A stretch of 64,000 bases of DNA from an uncultured Ignavibacteriota bacterium (GCA_903861125.1 CAIOTF010000021.1:1-64000), one strand, 5' to 3'. Positions 25,542 to 36,960 are shown, counted from the stretch's first letter. Made by a program: numbers and translations. Notes: generated by a model from the sequence alone, not told the origin.

Positions 25542-26216
25542 TTATTGAGCAAAAGCAACAGGGCTTCCGCCGAAGAAATAGATGTACAACGGTATGACCG
25601 CAAAACCGATCGGCAGCACCAGCCAAAAAAGAACGGCGGCAAATTCGATCAACGACTGATACTTTTTCGTCCGAAAACCCATCGTTTGGAATGCCGATTG
25701 GAAACCATGCCGGAGATGGTAACCCAGAATGAAGAACGCCGTGAGATAGAAAATAACATAGAACGGCTGCTGAAATGTATAATATACCAATGATGCAATA
25801 TCATGTTCTCCCTGAAAACGGGCGGGCACCCAGAATTTTTTCATGTGAACGGTAAGGAATACGAAAACAAGAGCAGCAGAGATTTTCATCATTCTGGACT
25901 GCAAAGTAGTGTTCTCGTTAAGCCTATAAACACCGTACCCTTTATCACGGGCGCTGCGGTTGCCTAACCAAAGTCGGGCTCCGTTGAAGATATGCAAAAG
26001 CACCAGGCTGAGCAGGCCGACTTCAAGAACGCGTACAACCGGATTGCCTCCCATGAATTTTGCAAAACCGTTGAACGCCTCGCCGTTATCGTTTTTGAGG
26101 AGTAAAAGATTCCCTGCCAGATGCTCAATAAGAAAGATCGCCAGGAAAATTCCGGTCAGACTCATTAACACTTTTTTGCCGACCGAAGAATTGATAAATC
26201 TAAAGAATGGATTCAT
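25542..26216 (-). CDS. sdhC: Succinate dehydrogenase cytochrome b558 subunit
   Basis: A 224-residue membrane anchor with five hydrophobic segments, the single-subunit B-type anchor. Histidines suited to bind two haems occur in LIEHLAGNLLL, VLLHIFNGARLW, FLTVHMKKFW and GYHLRHGFQSA. It takes electrons from SdhB to reduce menaquinone. First gene of sdhCAB. A TATACT -10-like box on the minus strand lies at 26259-26254, about 38 bp upstream of the start, with only a poorly spaced -35 (TTGATT), so the promoter call stays weak. Confidence 0.93.
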   Translation of the reverse strand: MNPFFRFINSSVGKKVLMSLTGIFLAIFLIEHLAGNLLLLKNDNGEAFNGFAKFMGGNPVVRVLEVGLLSLVLLHIFNGARLWLGNRSARDKGYGVYRLNENTTLQSRMMKISAALVFVFLTVHMKKFWVPARFQGEHDIASLVYYTFQQPFYVIFYLTAFFILGYHLRHGFQSAFQTMGFRTKKYQSLIEFAAVLFWLVLPIGFAVIPLYIYFFGGSPVAFAQ

Positions 26217-26301
26217 AAGGATGAGATGTTATTCATAAAATTTGCCGGAATAAAGTATAAAAGAAATGATGAAAAATCAATGTAACAATGGGATAAAATA
26301 A

Positions 26302-26332
26302 CAACGGCTGAACATTGTCTGCTCAGCCGTTG
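26302..26332 (-). terminator. Terminator after the CHASE2 cyclase gene
   Basis: CAACGGCTGA (26302-26311) pairs with TCAGCCGTTG (26323-26332). On the minus strand the stem is followed by TTATTTTATCCC. It lies 16 bp past the cyclase stop. Confidence 0.8.
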
Positions 26333-26348
26333 GGGAGTGGGTTTCCCG

Positions 26349-28502
26349 TTATTTTTTTGTCATCACGAAAACGCCGTTCCAATCATCCGGCGGCGGCGAA
26401 TCGTTGAACAGTGTCGCGCGCTGAATATAGAGATTGGAAACAACATCGTCCCGCCGGATGGAAAGTGCCTGCTGGAATTGATCAATAGCGCTCTTCCATG
26501 CACGTTTCTTGTATGCTTCAAGACCTTCGTGATAGAACTGCAGGAACTTCTTTGTTGCATCGGTTTGCACTTCGTCGGCCAGTGCAATCAATTCATAGAT
26601 GCGTACCGGTTCCGATTTTCCCATCACAACAACAAGATCCATTTCTCTGGAAAGAACTCTGTCGTGGACCTTGCGATACGTATATTCGCTCATTAATAGC
26701 CGTGTTCCGTACTCTTTATTCACACCTTCAAGACGGGCGGCAAGATTCACGGCATCGCCGATCGCGGTATAGTTCAAGCGCGATTCCGCACCCATGTTCC
26801 CTACAACGGCTCGTCCGGTATTGATACCGATACGCTGATTGACCACCGGGCGTCCATAATGGATCCATTTAGTGTGAAGCGCTGTAAGCTTTCGCTGCAT
26901 ATTGATCGCAGCCGCACATGAATTGTATGCCTGATCAGAATCGGACAGCGGCGCTCCCCAGAATGACATGATCGCATCACCGATATATTTATCGATCGTA
27001 CCGCCGTTTTCAATAATAATATTCGTCATCTCGGTCAGATATGAATTCAGCATACCTACGGTATTTTGCGGACCCATCTTTTCCGCCATACTGGTAAAAC
27101 CTTCGATGTCGGCAAACAGAGTTGTCAGTTCGCGTTCTTCACCGCCAAGTTTAACAAGAGATGGATTATCAAGAATTTGTTTTACGACCGCTTTGTCGAC
27201 ATACTTTTCAAACATACCCTTGATCTGCGCTTTTTGTCTCCCTTCGGTCGCCGCGTTATAGGACATGGCGGAAGCAAAACAGAAAAACAGCGTTACCATC
27301 GGCTCTACAATGTGGTACACGACACCCGTATTAACAAACGAGGAATATGCGATCCACAGATAACCGGCAATAAAAATAACACCGATAGGAAAACTCCAGC
27401 GCAATTTCATTACGATTGCGGCAATAGAAACAACCAGCGCCATAATGATGAGCAAAAGCAGCTGTGAGTGATACGGTGCTGATGAGATATATTTTCCGCT
27501 GCTGATCTGGTCATACACATTGGCGTGAACAAAACAGTTCGGAGAAATATCGGAAAGAGGTGTCGGGTTATGGTCTCCAATGGACCGGGCCGTTGGACCG
27601 ATGATAACAATTGCATCTTTGAACATTGCCAGCGTTGCTGCATCTTTATTGTTGAAAGCATCAAGCACTTCCATAAAGGAGATGTGCTTGTATATGCTGT
27701 CCGGACCGGCATAATCGATCTGCAAATATCCATGTCCGTCCAACGGAATCTCAAGCGAATCCGCCCGGACCGTCAATCCCCCTTCTTCGTTTTTTTCAAC
27801 GGTAATTTTTTGAAGATCCACCTTTGCTGCGGCAAATGCCAGGGCAGCACCGAATGTAGGGTAATAATCTCCGGCATATTCCACAAAGAACGGTACCGAA
27901 CGGATAATGCCGTCGATCGAATCGGGCTGTATCAAAATATGTCCGATACCGGCAGCCAAACCAACAAGGGTATCGATGGGACGTTCATCGATGTATGTTG
28001 CCCGTGGAAAATTAAATTGCTCGTGCTTTGGAATTGCATGTTGACGTAGGGTCTTTGCTGCTTCCAGATCGATGGCTCTTTGTTCGCCCAAGTTTTCTTC
28101 TTTGGGAACAAATGGTCCGATGGCATGGTACACATTCGGCGCATACGCGTGAAAGAACAGAAACTGGTCATTCTGAAATTGCGAGACGCTGTCTGTACGC
28201 ACTGTCGGGAAAAGATCGTCGACCCCGATCGCCTGAGCGCCGCTTTGCGCGAGGATGGCAAGCAAGGTACCGTATTTATCTCTCGGCACCGGATAATCAA
28301 GTTCTTTCATCGTGTATTCATCGATCGTTACGATGACCACATTTTTTGTATGCGTCCTTTCGCCACGGGCCTGCAGCAGTGCGTCATATGCTTTGAGTTC
28401 CAGCGATTTAAAAAATTCAAACCGGAATAATGCACTAGTGATTCCGATCGAGAGGACTGCAAACAAAACAGCGAAAAGAGACTTTAAAAGTTTTTTATTC
28501 AT
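26349..28502 (-). CDS. CHASE2-domain class III adenylate cyclase
   Basis: About 717 residues from the ATG at 28502 (CGGAG 5 nt upstream); a start at 28538 would add 12 residues. An N-terminal helix anchors a periplasmic CHASE2 sensor (about 25-320). Three membrane segments (about 330-410) follow, then the cyclase catalytic domain. FADIEGFTSMAEKMG and IDKYIGDAIMSFWGAP carry the two metal-binding Asp residues. The Lys of IDKYIGD and Thr of LNYTAIGD fit ATP as substrate. NLAARLEG has the transition-state Asn and Arg, so the enzyme should be active. A TPR-like helix pair ends the protein. It would turn an envelope signal into cAMP. It follows the CsgG/transglutaminase cassette on the same strand, behind a hairpin. 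Confidence 0.9.
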   Translation of the reverse strand: MNKKLLKSLFAVLFAVLSIGITSALFRFEFFKSLELKAYDALLQARGERTHTKNVVIVTIDEYTMKELDYPVPRDKYGTLLAILAQSGAQAIGVDDLFPTVRTDSVSQFQNDQFLFFHAYAPNVYHAIGPFVPKEENLGEQRAIDLEAAKTLRQHAIPKHEQFNFPRATYIDERPIDTLVGLAAGIGHILIQPDSIDGIIRSVPFFVEYAGDYYPTFGAALAFAAAKVDLQKITVEKNEEGGLTVRADSLEIPLDGHGYLQIDYAGPDSIYKHISFMEVLDAFNNKDAATLAMFKDAIVIIGPTARSIGDHNPTPLSDISPNCFVHANVYDQISSGKYISSAPYHSQLLLLIIMALVVSIAAIVMKLRWSFPIGVIFIAGYLWIAYSSFVNTGVVYHIVEPMVTLFFCFASAMSYNAATEGRQKAQIKGMFEKYVDKAVVKQILDNPSLVKLGGEERELTTLFADIEGFTSMAEKMGPQNTVGMLNSYLTEMTNIIIENGGTIDKYIGDAIMSFWGAPLSDSDQAYNSCAAAINMQRKLTALHTKWIHYGRPVVNQRIGINTGRAVVGNMGAESRLNYTAIGDAVNLAARLEGVNKEYGTRLLMSEYTYRKVHDRVLSREMDLVVVMGKSEPVRIYELIALADEVQTDATKKFLQFYHEGLEAYKKRAWKSAIDQFQQALSIRRDDVVSNLYIQRATLFNDSPPPDDWNGVFVMTKK

Positions 28503-28552
28503 AATACTCCGAAGGCTAAAAGAGAGGCTGGGAGGCATTTTGCTTTTTAAAA

Positions 28553-28583
28553 CAAGTTACCCTCCGACTTGGAGGGTAACTTG
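28553..28583 (-). terminator. Strong hairpin after the transglutaminase gene
   Basis: CAAGTTACCCTCC (28553-28565) pairs perfectly with GGAGGGTAACTTG (28571-28583) around a 5 nt loop. On the minus strand a short TTTTAAAAAGC follows. The stem is 11 bp past the stop of the 832-residue protein and 50 bp before the cyclase start. It probably ends or attenuates the cassette transcript. Confidence 0.75.
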
Positions 28584-28593
28584 CAAAAAAAAA

Positions 28594-31092
28594 CTATATT
28601 TTCCAATAGAGGAAATCCTTGATATTCGCTAAAGCAGTCGGATCGATGCCACGGCGTCCGCCAAAGAGAAACTTATTCTCTCCGCGTCGCACCTGACGGC
28701 TTGCCGTACGTGCTTCCTTGCGGACTTGCAGATCCTGCAGCGCACTAAACAGCAGGCTTTGCAGTTCACCTTTGTCGACGAATGCTCCTTTTTCCGCGGC
28801 GCGTGTTTGCCCCATTTCCGCTACAATATTGTCAATGCCCAATTCGGCATAGGCCTGTTCCTGAGAAGGAAATTTTGAAACGGCTGAAGCAAATGACGCG
28901 ACCGTTCCTTCATGATCTCCGCCGAGGTATTTTAAAAGACCGATGTTAAGATTGATCCCACCGTCTTTCGCATCGGCACTCATTGCGGCCGTATAGCTGT
29001 TGAATGCATTCAGTGAATCACCTTTCAGCAGATAAATATTGCCAAGATTATTCTGCGTTGAAGCGGATGTGTATGCACTGATCGTACTGATTGCTTCATC
29101 ATATTTTCCCGCGTTGGCCAGAATGACGGCTGCTTCATTCGCAGATTTTTCATTGTTCTGGCTTTTTAAATATGCCACCTTTTGGGTTGCCATATCGTTG
29201 TTTGCAGCAAAGATGCTCTGCGCATCGGCAGAAAGTAATTTTTCAATATCAGCAGCCGCCGGAGTCGCGGCGATCTTTTCATCACTCGCAAGATTGCTTG
29301 GCGGAGAAACTTTCCACGATGTACGCACATCCATCAGATCAATTTTTCCGTTTGCATCCTTGGTTTTATAATATCCGCCGGCGCCCATGCTCCATGCTTC
29401 CGAGAACGGCTTATTGATAATGGTCGTTTCAAGTGGAATCCAAACGGTGTTCTCAAGGACAACATAATCACGCTCGTTCAGACTGACGCGCGAGGCATTC
29501 TTTTTGTTCACACCGGTATCGAACATAATGAAGACGTGATCTGATGTTCCGATCAGCATTGTGCGTATGCCGAGATTCTCCAGGCATGCGGCAAGCAAAA
29601 CGGAACTATCGTCACAGTCACCCGCTTTCTTTGCCAGTGTCTGACGCGGAAATTGTATTTCATCAAGCACATCCCCTTCCGCAACTACCCACGGATCGGA
29701 AACATAATTGATGGAGAATGTACGGACGGCATCCCATATCTTCATTGCATTCTGCATGTTCCGCGATGCATTCGGGTACAACGACTGGTCAAATTTCACA
29801 GTTCCGACAACGCTGCGGGAAAAATTCTCCACTGCTGCGTCTTTGTATGTTACAAAGGCACCGACATGATTCGGTTTGTTCCAGCTGATGGAATTCTTGC
29901 TGTAGATCGTAACAGGTTTTGTAATGCTGCGGACTTTCTCCTCACCCGCCTGATTATAGGAGATCTCTGTTTTGATCTGAGCAACCGTATTCTCACTGAC
30001 GGACTGAAGTTTATCCTTATCCAGCGTGGCCGAGACGTTAAACATTTTCTTCTCGCCGGCCTTCAGCAGCGGTATCATCTGCTCCGATGCAAACGACATG
30101 TAGCTGGGAATAAATATCTTTGCTTTGATATTTTTGATATCTGTTTTTCCCGTATTCTCCAGTGTTACTGCACCGATGGGATTTTTTGAATAATAGACAA
30201 ATTGTGCCGGAAAAATATTTTCAACCTTGAACTCCGTGATCTCAAGCGCGCTCGAAAGGATCATGCTGGCTTTTTTTATCCCGCTTGTTTTCGTAGAAAC
30301 ATCCAGGCGATTGCCCGATGCGCCGACAACGGAAAATTCCTGCATGCCGGAGAAGGCTTTCCGAAGGTCATCCAATGTTCCTTTCATCACCACATCAAAC
30401 GATGCCGACCCCCCTTCCATATACCGCAATTTCATCTTTTGAATGATGGCAATCTTCGCCGGAAGTTCAGATTCGATTTTCACCAGCGAAGCATCGTTGA
30501 CACCCTGAAGGATGAGTTCCACGATGATTGGTTTTTCTTTCTGTTCCTTCATCTTCATTTCGATCTTCGACATCAGATCCGCCGCAAGAACATCGCCCAC
30601 TTCTTCAAGTGATTTTGATGCTGCCTGTGCTTTCCCCTGCGAAGATTTTTTCGACGATGCGCTGGAGACCGCCAGTATTTCACCCGTATCGGTTATGATC
30701 AATTTCACTTCGCCGTCGGATGTGAATTCGTTCGTTTTGATGCCGTAGACTTCTTTTTCGCCGCCAAAATTCGCCTGAGCACCCCCTGCGATGATCAGTT
30801 CGGCGCCGTACCGTCTGCCGAGTTCTTTTGCTTTAACGGCATCCGGCGCCGCAAAATCGCGCGCGCGAACCTCTGAAAATTGCCGTGAATCAACAATGCG
30901 GTATCCTTTTTCGAGCAGCGCTTTTTCGATCTTGCCGGCCACTTTTCTTGCTGTCGCGTCAACATTGTCGATCTTCTCATCAACAACTACCATAACGCGG
31001 GGCATATCGGCATTTTGCGCCATGATTGCAGCCGGCGGCAGAAACCCTGCTGCCAACGAAAAAATACAGAGTAACGAAAGAATGCGTTTCAT
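28594..31092 (-). CDS. Periplasmic protein: CsgG-like domain, transglutaminase-like domain, TPR
   Basis: An 832-residue exported protein with signal peptide (about 1-25). Residues 32-175 resemble the CsgG/FlgT-type nucleotide-like fold also present in its neighbours (RVMVVVDEKI... RRYGAELIIAGGA). A second alpha/beta region and a beta-sandwich (about 285-400) follow. Then comes a transglutaminase-like core: KKAGDCDDSSVLLAACLENLGI with the nucleophile Cys, SDHVFIMFD with the His, and LENTVWIPLET with the acidic partner, so a complete Cys-His-Asp/Glu triad can be assigned. TPR helices (about 650-760) finish it. Such domains make or cut isopeptide bonds or act as proteases. Fourth gene of the cassette starting at 34636; 25 bp after the preceding gene. 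I do not recognise the whole protein. Confidence 0.75.
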   Translation of the reverse strand: MKRILSLLCIFSLAAGFLPPAAIMAQNADMPRVMVVVDEKIDNVDATARKVAGKIEKALLEKGYRIVDSRQFSEVRARDFAAPDAVKAKELGRRYGAELIIAGGAQANFGGEKEVYGIKTNEFTSDGEVKLIITDTGEILAVSSASSKKSSQGKAQAASKSLEEVGDVLAADLMSKIEMKMKEQKEKPIIVELILQGVNDASLVKIESELPAKIAIIQKMKLRYMEGGSASFDVVMKGTLDDLRKAFSGMQEFSVVGASGNRLDVSTKTSGIKKASMILSSALEITEFKVENIFPAQFVYYSKNPIGAVTLENTGKTDIKNIKAKIFIPSYMSFASEQMIPLLKAGEKKMFNVSATLDKDKLQSVSENTVAQIKTEISYNQAGEEKVRSITKPVTIYSKNSISWNKPNHVGAFVTYKDAAVENFSRSVVGTVKFDQSLYPNASRNMQNAMKIWDAVRTFSINYVSDPWVVAEGDVLDEIQFPRQTLAKKAGDCDDSSVLLAACLENLGIRTMLIGTSDHVFIMFDTGVNKKNASRVSLNERDYVVLENTVWIPLETTIINKPFSEAWSMGAGGYYKTKDANGKIDLMDVRTSWKVSPPSNLASDEKIAATPAAADIEKLLSADAQSIFAANNDMATQKVAYLKSQNNEKSANEAAVILANAGKYDEAISTISAYTSASTQNNLGNIYLLKGDSLNAFNSYTAAMSADAKDGGINLNIGLLKYLGGDHEGTVASFASAVSKFPSQEQAYAELGIDNIVAEMGQTRAAEKGAFVDKGELQSLLFSALQDLQVRKEARTASRQVRRGENKFLFGGRRGIDPTALANIKDFLYWKI

Positions 31093-31117
31093 GTCTCTTC
31101 TCCTGAATGATTAATAA

Positions 31118-31882
31118 TTATTTCATTTTCGAAATTAACATCGCCATCTCTTCCGCCTTTTGTTTGGCGGGTTCATATCCTTCCGATTCATCCAATGCCT
31201 TTTGGAACATGGATCGTGCACTCTCATACGACGATTTTGCATCGGACTTTTTTCCCTGTTTTTCAAACTTCTTTCCCTGATCCTCAAGATTCAAGGCTTT
31301 TGCAAAGGTGATATACCCGTCAAAATTTCCGTCTTTCGTTGCTTCAAGCCTGTTCTCATCTTCCGAGGTCATCTTTACTTCGAGATCGGTTGCGATCTTC
31401 TTCACAAGCAATTGCAGCATCGTCAGAAATTCGTCAAGCTCGCCGGTCTCTTCTTCCGCCTTCAGAGTCTCGCCGGTTTCAGTACGGACAATGCGGACAT
31501 CGATGCGGAGTTTATCGTTGAACAGATTCGAAAAGCCGCCGAAGAGCATCACTTTCGCTCCAAGTATTTTTCCCATCTTCTGGGTGGTCGATTTATCGAC
31601 CATATCGGTTTCATTCAGATTTAGTTCTTCGATAATGGATTGTATCCGCTGCCGTTCAACGACTTTGATCCCTTTGATCTTCGTCATTTCAGTGATCATC
31701 ATATCCGCCAGACCTTTTTTCAGCGGATCCAATTTGTCCTTATCGACGACACTGTTATTTTCAAAATACAGTACAGCAATTGTTTTCGGGTCACCAGCCT
31801 GCACCTGTTGAACAAAGATGACGCTGTTCATCAGCATTGTACACACAGCCAACCAGCTAAAAAGTAAATGTTTCTGTTTCAT
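31118..31882 (-). CDS. Exported CsgG/FlgO-like protein with C-terminal helical repeat
   Basis: A 254-residue protein with signal peptide (1-29, ending VQAG). Residues 33-165 form the CsgG/LpoB/FlgO-type domain: TIAVLYFENNS, GLADMMITEM, VVERQRIQSIIEELNL and GKILGAKVMLFGGF. A charged helical segment (about 195-250) looks like a partial TPR. The 479-residue protein at 33197-34636 has the same blocks in the same order (TIAILYFENKG, VLERIRLQQLVEEMNL, GKLLGANRLVKGSF), so they are paralogues. No lipobox Cys is visible, unlike its paralogue. CsgG relatives form outer-membrane secretion pores or regulate peptidoglycan synthases; which applies here is unknown. Confidence 0.8.
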   Translation of the reverse strand: MKQKHLLFSWLAVCTMLMNSVIFVQQVQAGDPKTIAVLYFENNSVVDKDKLDPLKKGLADMMITEMTKIKGIKVVERQRIQSIIEELNLNETDMVDKSTTQKMGKILGAKVMLFGGFSNLFNDKLRIDVRIVRTETGETLKAEEETGELDEFLTMLQLLVKKIATDLEVKMTSEDENRLEATKDGNFDGYITFAKALNLEDQGKKFEKQGKKSDAKSSYESARSMFQKALDESEGYEPAKQKAEEMAMLISKMK

Positions 31883-31928
31883 ACTGATTTCCTTCCAGTA
31901 TTATGATATGATAAGTGAATATATTTTC

Positions 31929-33101
31929 TTAAAAAACAATCCGTATCGTGAGCCCCGCTTCAATACCGCGGACATCTTTTTTATTATTATCCAATGTGAT
32001 ATTTCCGAGAGCATACCGAATATTCAGCGTTGGATAGAAGATGTCGGAAAATAAAAATGTTACATCGGCACCGGCGCTTCCGATCTGTGCTTTCCCTGTT
32101 TCTATCGGTACACCGCCAACCGGAATTTGATCAGCAGTAAACAATTTCAATTCTCCCACAGCGGTACCCAACAGCCATTGACTCAGAGGATACGAGAGAG
32201 AATATTGCCCTTCCATTTGAATCGTTTTATTGTATGTTGTCGTTGCCGCACCGTTATAGAATGTGTTTGGCAAACGGTACCGGACTCGCACCTGCAAAAG
32301 ATGATTCAAGTTTCCCGTCTTTAAGGAATATGCCGCCAATCCGACGCATCGTGGTCCGGAGCGGAAGACAGTCTTACCATTCAATTTGTCCTCCAGAAAA
32401 TATGTCGCCGTAAGGTCGAACGAGAGCCGGGCAATTTTCGTATAGGAAATAAAATCATAACCCAGATTCACCGAAAATTCGTCCCCTGCATCGTATTCAA
32501 ATTTCGACGATGCCTCCACCGGTTCATACTTTCCTTTGTAGTAATACGATGCACCGAGTCCCACCACCATTCTCCGCGTTATTGTCCCGGCATAAACGAC
32601 AGCAATGTTCCCGCTTAGTCCCTGTCCGAATGTAGGCACGCGGTATGCAAATGCAGTCTGTGAAATTAGCGATGTCAATTGCAATTGTGACGATGTCAGA
32701 TGTGTCATTCCGGTCGGCAAACTTACGCCGCCTGTCAGCCATATTTTTTCACCTGGAAAAACGTACGAAAGCGATAAACGTGTATCGGCTATACTTGACA
32801 CTTTTGAGGTATCAAATGTTGTGATTGCACCGGAATTTGTCACCGAAAGCAGGAACCGGTTTGCCAATGGTACTGAAATTGATACCGGTGCTGATTGCTG
32901 CACTATCGTCCCCGAATCCTGCACCGTCCATTGCTGCTGAGTACCGCCAAACGTTATCCCGGTGGCACCGCTGAAGAGCGATTTGCTGCCGCCGGGCTGT
33001 TCAAATTGTGCTAAAGCCGTATGAAAGAACAGAACCGTCACCAGCAATACTACGGTTGAAATATGTGAAGAGCGAAGCTCTAAAGTTGTATTAATCATCA
33101 C
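31929..33101 (-). CDS. Outer-membrane beta-barrel protein (unrecognised)
   Basis: A 390-residue protein with signal peptide (about 1-31, ending ALAQ). The mature part is rich in alternating hydrophobic strands with aromatic girdles, and the last residues are LTIRIVF, ending in Phe as outer-membrane barrels do. Regular hairpin-like blocks (VVGLGASYYYKGKYEP, FSVNLGYDFISYT, LSFDLTATYFLEDK) suggest a barrel of roughly a dozen or more strands. It lies between the two CsgG-like paralogues (46 and 95 bp spacers), so it may be the outer-membrane partner of the cassette. No named porin family recognised. Confidence 0.75.
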   Translation of the reverse strand: MMINTTLELRSSHISTVVLLVTVLFFHTALAQFEQPGGSKSLFSGATGITFGGTQQQWTVQDSGTIVQQSAPVSISVPLANRFLLSVTNSGAITTFDTSKVSSIADTRLSLSYVFPGEKIWLTGGVSLPTGMTHLTSSQLQLTSLISQTAFAYRVPTFGQGLSGNIAVVYAGTITRRMVVGLGASYYYKGKYEPVEASSKFEYDAGDEFSVNLGYDFISYTKIARLSFDLTATYFLEDKLNGKTVFRSGPRCVGLAAYSLKTGNLNHLLQVRVRYRLPNTFYNGAATTTYNKTIQMEGQYSLSYPLSQWLLGTAVGELKLFTADQIPVGGVPIETGKAQIGSAGADVTFLFSDIFYPTLNIRYALGNITLDNNKKDVRGIEAGLTIRIVF

Positions 33102-33196
33102 ACTGTGCTGTTATATTTTATAAAGATCTTTTTTAACTGATGAAAACTCGATTTTTCGTAAGCTGCAACAAAAGCATTGTGCGTAAACGCAAGATA

Positions 33197-34636
33197 TCAA
33201 TTTGGTGGTAATGGCGGCGCTTTTAACGGATCTATGACTGTTGGAGGCGGCGTATTTTGAGAACCGGTCCCCGGGTTCACTGTGTTGTTGATGTTTTCGA
33301 GAAGATTACCGATGCGGTCATTAATAATATTTCCTTGACCTCCCCCGGCATAACTTGTCGGAGGCGGAGGCGGGGGCGGAACAAAGTTGAATGTGGAAGT
33401 TTTGGTGGCCGACGATGACTTCGATGCAGTTCCGGTTGATTGTTGTCCCTGTTTTTGGTCTGATTGTTTCTGATCGGCCTGACTCTGATCCGATGATTTT
33501 GCATCATTCGATGAGGTAGGCGAAGTTGTTCCAACAATCTGTTCCGATTTCTTTGCAGATGATGCGCTCGTTTTCGCCTGAGCAAAATTCGGATCAGCCG
33601 CAGCAGCTTGCGAATAGGATTCAAACGCCTGAGTATACATTCCCTGGTCTTCGTAATCCAAACCGCGCGAATACTGAAGGAACGCAAAGAAATTTTCCGT
33701 TGGAATTTCCATGATTGCTTCGCGCTCTTCATCGGTAAGTTTTATTTTCATCTGATCGATGATCTTAAAGACCAGCTCTTTTTCCATCCTAAAAAAATCC
33801 TGTACTTTGCCGGAGATATTTGTTGATGCGTCGATCTCACCTGTTCGCGCTTTTGCTACAAATGCGTCGATGTTAATTTTGTCTCCGGTAAGGTCAAAGA
33901 ACGATCCCTTTACCAATCTGTTCGCACCAAGCAATTTTCCCAGACGCGGTGCCGTTTTCTGATCCACGATATCCGTTTCAGACAGGTTCATTTCCTCTAC
34001 CAATTGCTGCAGCCGTATCCGTTCCAGAACTTTCAAGGCTTTCACTTTCGAAAGATCCGTGATTAGCATTTCCGACAATCCTTTTTGCAACGGATTCAGT
34101 TCTGCTTTTTGTCCTTTATTCTCAAAATACAAGATAGCAATCGTATTCGCGGGTATCTTGGCAACGTCCAATTGTTGTTCCATTTGTAAAGCGCGTTGTG
34201 CTTCCAGCTCCATTTGCTGACGGTATAATAGCTTTATTCTTGTCTCTACAACCTCTTTGTATTCTCCAAAGAATGTCAACTCATTATAGATACGGTAATA
34301 TTGAATTGCTTTGCTGTAATCCCGTTGTGCTTCGTATGATGCCGCAAGATAATATGCTGACTGGTCGTCTTCGTCATCCAGTTTTAGGACCTGCTGAAGA
34401 AGTTTGGCTGCTTCCTCATACTGTTTTTTATTATAGTACGCTATTGCCATCAGTTTAAGATATTCGGGTGTGTCGGGAGACAGGACTAACGCACGTTTCA
34501 TGCGCGCAATTGCCTCGTCATTTCTCCCCTGCTCAATAAGATCAGTCGTAATATTCGAAAGACTTGGACCGCATGAGGAAAGCAATACCGCCATGCAGAT
34601 TGAAAAAAATGCTACGCGGTAAAAAGAAAATTTCAT
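33197..34636 (-). CDS. Lipoprotein with TPR and CsgG/FlgO-like domain, Pro/Ser/Gln-rich tail
   Basis: 479 residues from ATG 34636, which has GGAG at proper spacing and opens with a lipoprotein signal (lipobox LLSSC, Cys at about 23). An upstream in-frame ATG at 34888 adds 84 residues with no such logic. Residues 28-130 hold two or three TPRs (DEAIARMKRALVLSPDTPEYLKLM, EEAAKLLQQVLKLDDED). Residues about 165-300 are a CsgG/FlgO-like domain paralogous to the 31118-31882 product. Another TPR (MYTQAFESYSQAAAADPN) leads into a low-complexity tail with Ser/Gln/Lys repeats and PPPPPPP. First gene of the cassette; a promoter candidate lies just upstream. Confidence 0.8.
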   Translation of the reverse strand: MKFSFYRVAFFSICMAVLLSSCGPSLSNITTDLIEQGRNDEAIARMKRALVLSPDTPEYLKLMAIAYYNKKQYEEAAKLLQQVLKLDDEDDQSAYYLAASYEAQRDYSKAIQYYRIYNELTFFGEYKEVVETRIKLLYRQQMELEAQRALQMEQQLDVAKIPANTIAILYFENKGQKAELNPLQKGLSEMLITDLSKVKALKVLERIRLQQLVEEMNLSETDIVDQKTAPRLGKLLGANRLVKGSFFDLTGDKINIDAFVAKARTGEIDASTNISGKVQDFFRMEKELVFKIIDQMKIKLTDEEREAIMEIPTENFFAFLQYSRGLDYEDQGMYTQAFESYSQAAAADPNFAQAKTSASSAKKSEQIVGTTSPTSSNDAKSSDQSQADQKQSDQKQGQQSTGTASKSSSATKTSTFNFVPPPPPPPTSYAGGGQGNIINDRIGNLLENINNTVNPGTGSQNTPPPTVIDPLKAPPLPPN

Positions 34637-34660
34637 GAATAAACTCCAATATTTACTGCA

Positions 34661-34689
34661 AATATTGCAAAAATTGCTTCTGTAGTCAA
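34661..34689 (-). promoter_or_regulatory. Candidate promoter and operator-like palindrome for the CsgG cassette
   Basis: On the minus strand TTGACT (34689-34684), 17 bp, then AATATT (34666-34661), about 25 bp before the 34636 start. An inverted repeat CAATATTT/AAATATTG (34647-34654 and 34660-34667) overlaps the -10 box and the expected start point, as an operator would. Based on motif and spacing only. Confidence 0.4.
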
Positions 34690-34820
34690 GAATTGAACAC
34701 CAAACCATCACCAAGACACTGAATGTATGATAAACCTCAGTAAACAAGAAGAAAATGAGACGCGAAAATGTATGGTATATCACAATCTGTTTGGATATGG
34801 TTTTTTGAACCTTTTGCCCC

Positions 34821-35294
34821 TTATTCTCCCCCCAACATTTTTTCGGCTTGGGATTGTGCCCATCGGGCAAGAGTATCACGTTCGGCATCGCTGAAATTAG
34901 CCGCCGGATGTAACGGTATATATTTTGGAAGCGGCATGGAACGGTCGGAGAGAGCTTCGTAAATTCCGGTGAGCTTTTGAATTTTTTTACCGGGCTTATA
35001 CTTTCCCCATTCAGACATATTGAAATTCTTTCGTCCTTCCATCACGTCGTGAGAAACAAGCCATGAAACGGGAGCAATGTATGAATAGAACGGCCAAGTT
35101 GTCTGATCGGAATGACAGTCTTTGCATCCTCTCTCCAGCAGTTGTCCAATGTTGGCAGGCATTTTAAGATCGGCCTGCATTGTCATTGTAGGATCGAACA
35201 AAGGATTTTCGCGATTTGGCTGAATACTTTGTATTACAATAAAAATAATTCCGCCGACAGCAGACGTAACTTTGACGATCTTTTTGATGTCCAT
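34821..35294 (-). CDS. Haem-binding domain protein (single-haem c-type)
   Basis: About 157 residues from the Met at 35294 (a start at 35369 would add 25 basic residues before the membrane helix). One N-terminal membrane segment (VTSAVGGIIFIVIQSIQ) exports the protein. CKDCH is a c-type haem attachment motif, followed by SDQTTWPFYSYIAPVSWLVSHDVMEGR, the signature of the PF14376 haem-binding family, whose WPFY and late Met/His residues shape the site. The end (DAERDTLARWAQSQAEKM) is the usual closing helix. It would be a periplasmic membrane-anchored cytochrome. Its stop is 185 bp upstream of the CsgG cassette start, on the same strand. Confidence 0.85.
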   Translation of the reverse strand: MDIKKIVKVTSAVGGIIFIVIQSIQPNRENPLFDPTMTMQADLKMPANIGQLLERGCKDCHSDQTTWPFYSYIAPVSWLVSHDVMEGRKNFNMSEWGKYKPGKKIQKLTGIYEALSDRSMPLPKYIPLHPAANFSDAERDTLARWAQSQAEKMLGGE

Positions 35295-35595
35295 AGCAAA
35301 TCTTTTCCCCGATTTTTTGTCTTTAGGAATATGGAAAAAGCGATGAAGAGAAGCAAACATCCAGGTCACATATGGTGCTTGCTTGACTGACGATTCATTC
35401 TTATTTTCATATTAACTACATTTCAAAAACGGTTTTCAGCATTATGGCGCACAAAGCAGCTTCGGAAACCCATTTTGTCCGGCGTAAGCATATGTGAGAC
35501 AATTTCATAATACCAAAGCATCGTCTCCGCAAAACATATAAAAAATAAATTTGAGTTAACGGTCAATATTTTTCACCAATAATCGGGACCTACAT
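35295..35595. other. Divergent spacer without a recognisable gene
   Basis: 301 bp between the haem protein and glmM. It must hold both promoters, but I see no convincing -35/-10 pair, strong hairpin or small gene. AT-rich near 35530-35580. Confidence 0.5.
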
Positions 35596-36960
35596 ATGTC
35601 ATTAATGGTTAGCATCTCCGGTATTCGCGGCATCGTCGGCGAATCATTAACGCCGGAAACTATCGTAAAATATACGGCAGGGTTTGCAGAATACTGTAAG
35701 CGCGGAACGATTATTGTTGGACGCGACGGAAGAATCACCGGAAAATCGATCTCCGATATTGTGGTCTCAACATTACAGCAGATGGGATGCAATGTAATCT
35801 TGCTCGGCATTTGTCCGACACCGACCGTTGGTCTTGCCATTGAAAAACTGCACGCAGCCGGCGGAATTGCAATTACCGCCAGCCACAATCCAATGAAATG
35901 GAATGGATTAAAATTTATCGGTTCATCCGGTATGTTTTTAAATGGAGAAGAAAACAAACAATTCTGGACGATTGCCGACCGGGGAAACTTCACATACAAA
36001 GCATGGAACGAACAGGGTACGCTTACCGAAGATCCCGATTTCATTAACGATCATATCAGGACAATTCTTTCGCTTCCAAGCATCAATAAGGCCGAGATCG
36101 CCAACAGAAAACTGAAAGTGGTTGTGGATTGCGTCAACTCCGCCGGCGGGAATATCGTTCCGAAATTGCTGCGTGAACTAGGCTGTACTGTGATCGAAAT
36201 GAACTGTGAAGTCAGCGGAATTTTTTCGCACACGCCTGAACCGATCCCCGAAAATCTGACGGACCTTTGTGCGCGGGTCGTGCTGGAAAAAGCAAATCTT
36301 GGAATCGCCGTCGATCCCGACGTTGACCGGTTAGTATTGATTACGGAAGAAGGTACTCCGTTCGTTGAGGAATATACCATTGTATCTGCGGCGAAATTCA
36401 TTCTGGAAGCGGAAAAAAAACTCGGCAGGTCGGGGCATATCGTTGTCGTTAATCTTTCCACCACGCGCGCCGTTGAGGATGTTGCAAAGGAATTCGGCGC
36501 AACAGTACGTCGCACGCCGGTCGGCGAGATTAACGTGGCTTCGAAGATGAAAGAACTGCATTCCGTCATCGGCGGCGAGGGGAGCGGCGGCGTTATTTTA
36601 CCAGAAGTCCATCTCGGTCGCGACGCAATTGTCGGCATCGGAATATTCATGCAGCTGCTTGCAAACTATGGTGGAAAGGCATCCGCTTTGAAAGCAAGCC
36701 TGCCGCAATATGAGATCGTGAAGAACAAGATCGAACTCGGCTCATTGAAGCCTGATGAGATCCTGAAACGCCTGCACGGAAAATATTCCAAAACTGAGAC
36801 AACAAATTTTGACGACGGCCTAAAGATCGACTTTCCCGCTTCATGGGTCCATTTGCGGAAATCGAATACGGAACCGATCATCCGTATTATCGCGGAAGCA
36901 AAAACAAAGGATGAAGCAGAGCAATTGGTCGGCCGTTTTCAAAAAGAGATACTCGGGTGA
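35596..36960 (+). CDS. glmM: Phosphoglucosamine mutase / phosphohexomutase (GlmM-like)
   Basis: A 454-residue alpha-D-phosphohexomutase. GIRGIVGE opens the fold; the catalytic phosphoserine loop reads ITASHNPMKWNGLKF (about residues 95-109); the metal loop is DPDVDRL; the sugar loop GGEGSGGV; and the phosphate-binding loop RKSNTEPIIRIIAEA. This family makes glucosamine-1-phosphate for peptidoglycan or interconverts mannose/glucose phosphates. Bacteroidota-type members with TASHNP rather than SASHNP are often annotated either way, so the substrate is uncertain. First gene of a set with dprA 4 bp downstream. Confidence 0.88.
   Translation: MSLMVSISGIRGIVGESLTPETIVKYTAGFAEYCKRGTIIVGRDGRITGKSISDIVVSTLQQMGCNVILLGICPTPTVGLAIEKLHAAGGIAITASHNPMKWNGLKFIGSSGMFLNGEENKQFWTIADRGNFTYKAWNEQGTLTEDPDFINDHIRTILSLPSINKAEIANRKLKVVVDCVNSAGGNIVPKLLRELGCTVIEMNCEVSGIFSHTPEPIPENLTDLCARVVLEKANLGIAVDPDVDRLVLITEEGTPFVEEYTIVSAAKFILEAEKKLGRSGHIVVVNLSTTRAVEDVAKEFGATVRRTPVGEINVASKMKELHSVIGGEGSGGVILPEVHLGRDAIVGIGIFMQLLANYGGKASALKASLPQYEIVKNKIELGSLKPDEILKRLHGKYSKTETTNFDDGLKIDFPASWVHLRKSNTEPIIRIIAEAKTKDEAEQLVGRFQKEILG

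Follow-up and report, generated by a model that had tools for sequence, protein, structure and literature searches.

In a 64,000-nucleotide stretch of DNA from an uncultured Ignavibacteriota bacterium (GCA_903861125.1, CAIOTF010000021.1:1-64000; hereafter the window), four genes on the same strand, named A, B, C and D, were read as open reading frames (ORFs) at positions 28594-34636 of the minus strand. The named relatives are metagenome-assembled genomes of Ignavibacteriae/Bacteroidota. Comparison with related genomes shows that this cassette is what is left of a longer envelope operon conserved in Ignavibacteria, and that a giant gene between A and B, which we name BIG, was deleted in this one genome. 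Gene A (33197-34636, minus strand) encodes a lipoprotein of 479 residues that combines tetratricopeptide repeats (TPRs) with a CsgG domain and ends in a Pro-rich tail, and its start at 34636 agrees with that of its counterpart in the alignment to the sister species (G021). Gene B (31929-33101, minus) encodes a predicted outer-membrane beta-barrel of 390 residues with a C-terminal Phe, and gene C (31118-31882, minus) an exported CsgG-domain protein of 254 residues with a helical C-terminus. The exported product of gene D (28594-31092, minus) has 832 residues which, according to profiles, alignment and a structural model, comprise a CsgG-like region, a small alpha/beta domain, an immunoglobulin (Ig)-like domain, a transglutaminase domain and TPRs. 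A gene for a sensor-cyclase, E, lies downstream. Labels of genomes (G000, the window's own genome, and so on), loci (L058, etc.), contigs (C23, etc.) and families (f1-f23, with f1 the family of the window operon) are our own.

The genomes of family f1 carry the order A-BIG-B-C-D-E, which is kept in nearly all genera of the family. In these relatives BIG spans 1,465-1,623 codons (around 4.4-4.9 kb) between A and B; the BIG of G002 is shorter, with 1,135 codons (3.4 kb), and G004 has an extra large ORF between BIG and B. The BIG proteins contain Sortilin/BNR propeller repeats, HYDIN/ASH Ig domains and a DUF4350-like domain, preceded by a signal peptide recognised in the N-terminal sequence and followed by a C-terminal FlgD_ig/Por_Secre_tail sorting domain of the type IX secretion system (T9SS), which in the protein of L058 scores 29.8 bits for Por_Secre_tail and 32.9 bits for FlgD_ig (cut-off 27 for each). 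Only 95 bp (33102-33196, minus) lie between A and B in the window, and this gap holds remnants of both ends of the gene that is intact in G021. Its left part aligns to the stop of A and the start of BIG (24/35 bases), and its right part to the last BIG codons running into B. The scar thus consists of a decayed start of 35 bp, with a mutated start codon and a damaged frame, and approximately the last 15-20 codons of a gene of about 4.8 kb. Because remnants of both ends persist in the gap and no BIG orthologue was found elsewhere in the window genome (scored 100% complete), we conclude that a longer operon gave rise to the four-gene cassette by deletion. The four ORFs and their order were correctly called in the first-pass annotation of the window, but the cassette it described is not the complete unit.

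An assembly error in the metagenome bin could in principle mimic such a loss, and contig breaks within or beside BIG in several relatives do indicate that the gene is difficult to assemble. This explanation is very improbable, since the gap lies inside a single contig, what remains of the two BIG ends has diverged and carries a mutated start and frame changes, and no orthologue was found elsewhere in the complete-scoring bin. A gene on contig C23 was considered as a relocated BIG and rejected: it scores 486 bits vs 1,988 for the sister's gene, and the sister genomes carry both types. This C23 paralogue (L104:7739-14944 in G000) encodes 2,401 residues with cohesin, cadherin-like and Ig domains and is flanked by two more T9SS-tailed genes; it is possible that it stands in for the lost BIG. 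The presence of SprA (SprA_N, 187.6 bits) and 20 PorV-family proteins over the cut-off demonstrates that the T9SS machinery exists in the window genome. Twenty PorV-family proteins make a strikingly large set for one genome.

The remaining genes are still maintained by purifying selection. Pairwise ratios of nonsynonymous to synonymous substitution rates (dN/dS) against G021, which average both branches, are 0.048 for A, 0.086 for B, 0.062 for C, 0.046 for D and 0.058 for E, and in none of the five genes is the number of changes on the window branch significantly raised. A faster evolution of B since the loss of BIG was looked for and not seen, with 7 vs 6 unique changes. In another genome of the same family (G006, contig C34, L069) an isolated C gene with 55% identity occurs without D or B, which is another partial loss.

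The individual proteins were characterized by profile searches, homologue alignments and AlphaFold2 models. Protein A exceeds the Pfam cut-offs for both TPR_2 (61.9 bits) and CsgG (PF03783; 41.7 bits, cut-off 20.8), and its lipobox Cys22 is invariant among homologues. Protein C scores 58.1 bits for CsgG against the same cut-off; a lipobox was looked for in C and none was found, and a search against sequences of solved structures returned only designed TPR chains with weak E-values. An hhalign comparison (100%, 38% identity) identifies A and C as paralogues, and the CsgG profile match is limited to positions 10-98 of 210, corresponding to the N-terminal half of the model. No match to B was obtained in the Pfam or NCBIfam profile searches. 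Its predicted structure (pLDDT 83.3, pTM 0.77; the predicted local distance difference test and template modelling scores) is a barrel with around 16 strands counted on the DSSP line, and fold matches with Z-scores of 16-20 include CdiB, PgaA, FhaC, CymA, PelB, BcsC and porins. The model supports B as an outer-membrane barrel; its type is left unsettled by the fold because the polysaccharide exporters (PgaA Z 19.6, PelB Z 18.5, BcsC Z 17.9), two-partner secretion (TPS) transporters (Z 18.8-19.9), CymA (Z 18.8) and porins (Z 16-17) score alike. By profile B is not a PorV protein, being absent from the 28 NF033709 matches in its own genome.

The assignment of D relies on weaker similarities. By profile its N-terminus resembles CsgG weakly (hhalign 50%, E 1.6e-4) and the Pfam search gave no CsgG match there, whereas the model of this region matches FlgT as the top fold, followed by GNA1162, HpaA, CsgG and PelC, supporting a predicted CsgG/FlgT/PelC fold. 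The whole D model has a pLDDT of 70.5 and a pTM of 0.39, with pLDDT values around 30 at residues 460-493, just before Cys493. A repeat fold comparison was dominated by TPR matches, and a search against sequences of solved structures gave TPR chains and otherwise nothing but weak chance matches. The transglutaminase profiles fall under the Pfam cut-offs (DUF553 18.3 bits, Transglut_core 14.9 bits), but Cys493, His519 and Glu555 are unchanged in an alignment of 16 homologues, so that a Cys-His-acid triad is present. Glu555, in the motif VWIPLETT, is probably the acid of this triad because it is unchanged together with Cys493 and His519. Residues 306-618 of D match NCBIfam NF058533, the antiphage protein ProA, with an E-value of 4.9e-21, from which it follows that the N-terminus of the ProA family probably shares the Ig-transglutaminase unit.

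Between D and E lies a hairpin (28547-28591, minus) with a short T tail, whose stem of 14 pairs, GCAAGTTACCCTCC...GGAGGGTAACTTGT, is near-identical in eight species and whose 10-bp core occurs only once in the genome. Its covariation was no better than that of shuffles (139/500), so we claim conservation alone; the hairpin is possibly a terminator or an attenuator. Gene E (26349-28502, minus) was first called as an open frame of 26349-28538, and the second ATG, which is the start in relatives, places its beginning at 28502. E combines a CHASE2 sensor (150 bits) with a class III nucleotide cyclase domain (Guanylate_cyc, 69.6 bits) that keeps the metal-binding Asp pair, the Lys/Asp substrate residues and the Asn/Arg residues; the motifs FADIEGFT, DKYIGDA and YTAIGDAVNLAARLE are found in the window and in most relatives. 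A terminator-like hairpin of 13 pairs follows E (26302-26332, minus). An Rfam search of 26000-35700 gave no matches. These results bear out the first-pass description of A as a TPR-CsgG lipoprotein, of B as an outer-membrane barrel, of C as an exported CsgG-like paralogue of A, and of a hairpin and a CHASE2 cyclase following D. For D, the proposed CsgG-like part is found by fold while the profiles are weak or silent, and the proposed transglutaminase retains its invariant triad with profile scores below the cut-offs.

To see how widely these genes occur together, we use a sample of 294 genomes over the class. B is present in 26 of them, in families f1, f6, f7, f14 and f23, and wherever the flanking sequence is sufficient it adjoins a BIG-type T9SS-tailed gene, usually together with A and C. 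The orders are C-A-BIG-B in f6, BIG-B and A-BIG-B-C in f7, BIG-B in f23 and C-A-B-BIG in f14, with a tandem A-B-A-B-BIG in G095. Genes for FHA/oxidoreductase, PP2C and PEGA-kinase (Ser/Thr) proteins lie upstream of the surface set in f6, f7 and f14. At eight loci (L071, L072, L070, L166, L074, L198, L192 and L195) a PP2C gene and a PEGA-domain Ser/Thr kinase gene, some with FHA, stand directly upstream of C-A-BIG-B. Families f1, f5 and f20 have a full-length D and f14 has D-like fusions; in f5 D immediately follows BIG-type genes. In 13 of 17 genomes, a count not independent by descent, a CHASE2 gene is located no more than 10 kb from D or its f14 relative, where gene numbers and genome sizes predict 0.33. 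More distant Ig-transglutaminase proteins adjoin CHASE2 genes in contigs of Caldithrix, Treponema, Poribacteria and Flavobacteriales, and a second family of around 660 residues adjoins CHASE2-sigma54 activators. Loci L139, L140, L143, L147 and L162-L165, from Caldithrix, Treponema, Poribacteria and Bacteroidota, place an Ig-transglutaminase gene beside a CHASE2 gene of the cyclase or sigma54-activator type. The Ig-transglutaminase protein is possibly a general partner of CHASE2 sensors.

We propose, with a probability of about 0.4, that the operon encodes a complex of the cell envelope which retains a T9SS surface protein and passes information on the state of that protein to a signalling enzyme in the inner membrane. 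Starting from the gene content and order, the BIG deletion, the export signals, the folds of B and of the D N-terminus, and the catalytic residues of D and E, we infer how A, BIG, B, C, D and E may interact and act. BIG would be exported by Sec, pass through the T9SS by means of its C-terminal sorting domain and be displayed on the surface, with B as an outer-membrane partner dedicated to it. In the periplasm below B, the CsgG-domain proteins A and C would form a ring or scaffold, A being tethered by its lipid. D may attach through its CsgG and TPR domains, and its transglutaminase-fold site may cleave or link one of the periplasmic proteins of the complex. The CHASE2 domain of E would read the state of D and change cytoplasmic cyclic AMP (cAMP). 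In related families a Ser/Thr kinase, PP2C and FHA set occupies the corresponding place. The strongest support for a signalling role is that one and the same surface module is combined with two unrelated outputs (kinase/PP2C/FHA and CHASE2-cyclase) depending on the family, and that D keeps CHASE2 genes as neighbours. Magnetotactic bacteria provide a precedent for the D-E pair, in which the gene of an exported TPR-type protein, mtxA, is followed by a CHASE2-adenylate cyclase gene (PMC4439547); that paper describes neither a transglutaminase domain in MtxA nor any BIG, A, B or C. The operon shares with type IX secretion the sorting tail of the lost BIG and a genome with SprA and many PorV proteins, although A-E are not known T9SS parts and B is not PorV by profile. 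A more specific version, which we consider rather doubtful, takes the T9SS giant as an outer sensor, the barrel and the CsgG-fold proteins as a relay across the outer membrane, and D as a general partner and input of CHASE2 receptors in a surface-to-cytoplasm signalling system.

The first-pass idea of an envelope system that is undescribed and coupled to cAMP-type signalling holds up, as the gene order is conserved throughout the family and in part over the class, and D retains the cyclase as its neighbour; the objection that the order might be confined to one lineage fails since the relatives share it. The open-licence papers searched contained no account of this gene combination, nothing joining CHASE2 with CsgG and, for CHASE2 with transglutaminase, one unrelated paper. 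A secreted product, also suggested earlier, is present in the operon of relatives as the T9SS-tailed BIG but lost from the window, and nothing in the analysis shows crosslinking by the transglutaminase.

Several observations weigh against the proposed complex. The transglutaminase match of D is weak and its model has low confidence around Cys493, the hairpin could uncouple the transcription of D and E, and the genomes counted for D near CHASE2 genes are not independent by descent. D pairs with E alone in f20, without A, B or BIG, and at the f6 locus the A-BIG-B set stands without D and E, so that the operon may be made up of two separate modules. Furthermore, A-E are kept under purifying selection without BIG, and BIG is therefore dispensable for some functions; in the window genome A-E would either use another T9SS protein or serve a BIG-independent role.

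An export pore of the PelBC or curli type is an unlikely but serious alternative, in which B would be the channel and sit on CsgG-type rings made of A and C, D would trim or link the product, and the signalling genes would merely regulate. PelBC consists of a TPR-barrel protein upon a ring of twelve PelC lipoproteins (PMC12141448), and here, too, a barrel, a TPR scaffold and a CsgG-fold lipoprotein come together, although the TPRs are fused to the CsgG protein A and not to the barrel. B is modelled as a bare 16-strand barrel with PgaA, PelB and BcsC among its matches, and the D N-terminus matches PelC and CsgG, but the equal scores of TPS transporters, CymA and porins mean that the fold of B gives no pointer to export. 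The only linked product is BIG, which bears a T9SS tail, and this giant, a transglutaminase protein and a cyclase accompany the set here, unlike in PelBC; neither a glycan synthase nor another polymer synthase was noticed among the genes around the operon or in its relatives. The likeness to curli lies in the CsgG domains of A and C, both over the cut-off, but the CsgG model is matched in its N-terminal half only, C is no lipoprotein, a separate barrel B exists, and CsgF (PF10614) has no match in the window genome while the E. coli control was positive.

Somewhat less probable still is that two independent modules simply became neighbours, namely a T9SS display set (A-BIG-B-C) and a signalling pair of a general periplasmic transglutaminase and a CHASE2 protein (D-E). 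The gene contents of f20 and f6 and the conserved hairpin separating D and E agree with this idea, but D stands right after BIG-type genes in f5 as well, and nearly all genera of f1 retain all six genes in order.

Control of peptidoglycan synthases in the manner of LpoB is improbable. C exceeds the Pfam LpoB cut-off (27.2 vs 22.3 bits), but it falls far under the equivalog cut-off of NCBIfam TIGR02722 (25.9 vs 110.55 bits), lacks a lipobox and scores much higher for CsgG. FlgT, FlgO and LpoB share a CsgG/TolB_N-type fold with these proteins, FlgT being the top fold match of D, yet among the genes of the operon none for a flagellar or a penicillin-binding protein was noticed; the placement in LpoB, FlgO or TolB systems, which the first-pass annotation had named as a counter-argument, thus extends only to the shared CsgG-type fold. 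A phage-defence locus is hardly credible, for the ProA-like match of D scores 74 against a cut-off of 1500, the PADLOC PycC models that match E as a Pycsar-like cyclase probably pick up class III cyclases generally, and the proteins are exported and found at one conserved place within the family rather than patchily. No source for ProA as a defence protein was found in the open-licence literature.

CHASE2 sensors are widespread, and we know of no established inputs for them. In several phyla they are repeatedly paired with an exported protein of the Ig-transglutaminase kind, which provides a testable partner. The A-BIG-B set ties CsgG-fold proteins and an outer-membrane barrel to T9SS cargo, a link of which no account was found in the open-licence papers searched. 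Finally, the natural deletion of BIG in the window genome is an evolutionary experiment that may reveal which parts of the operon function without the surface protein.

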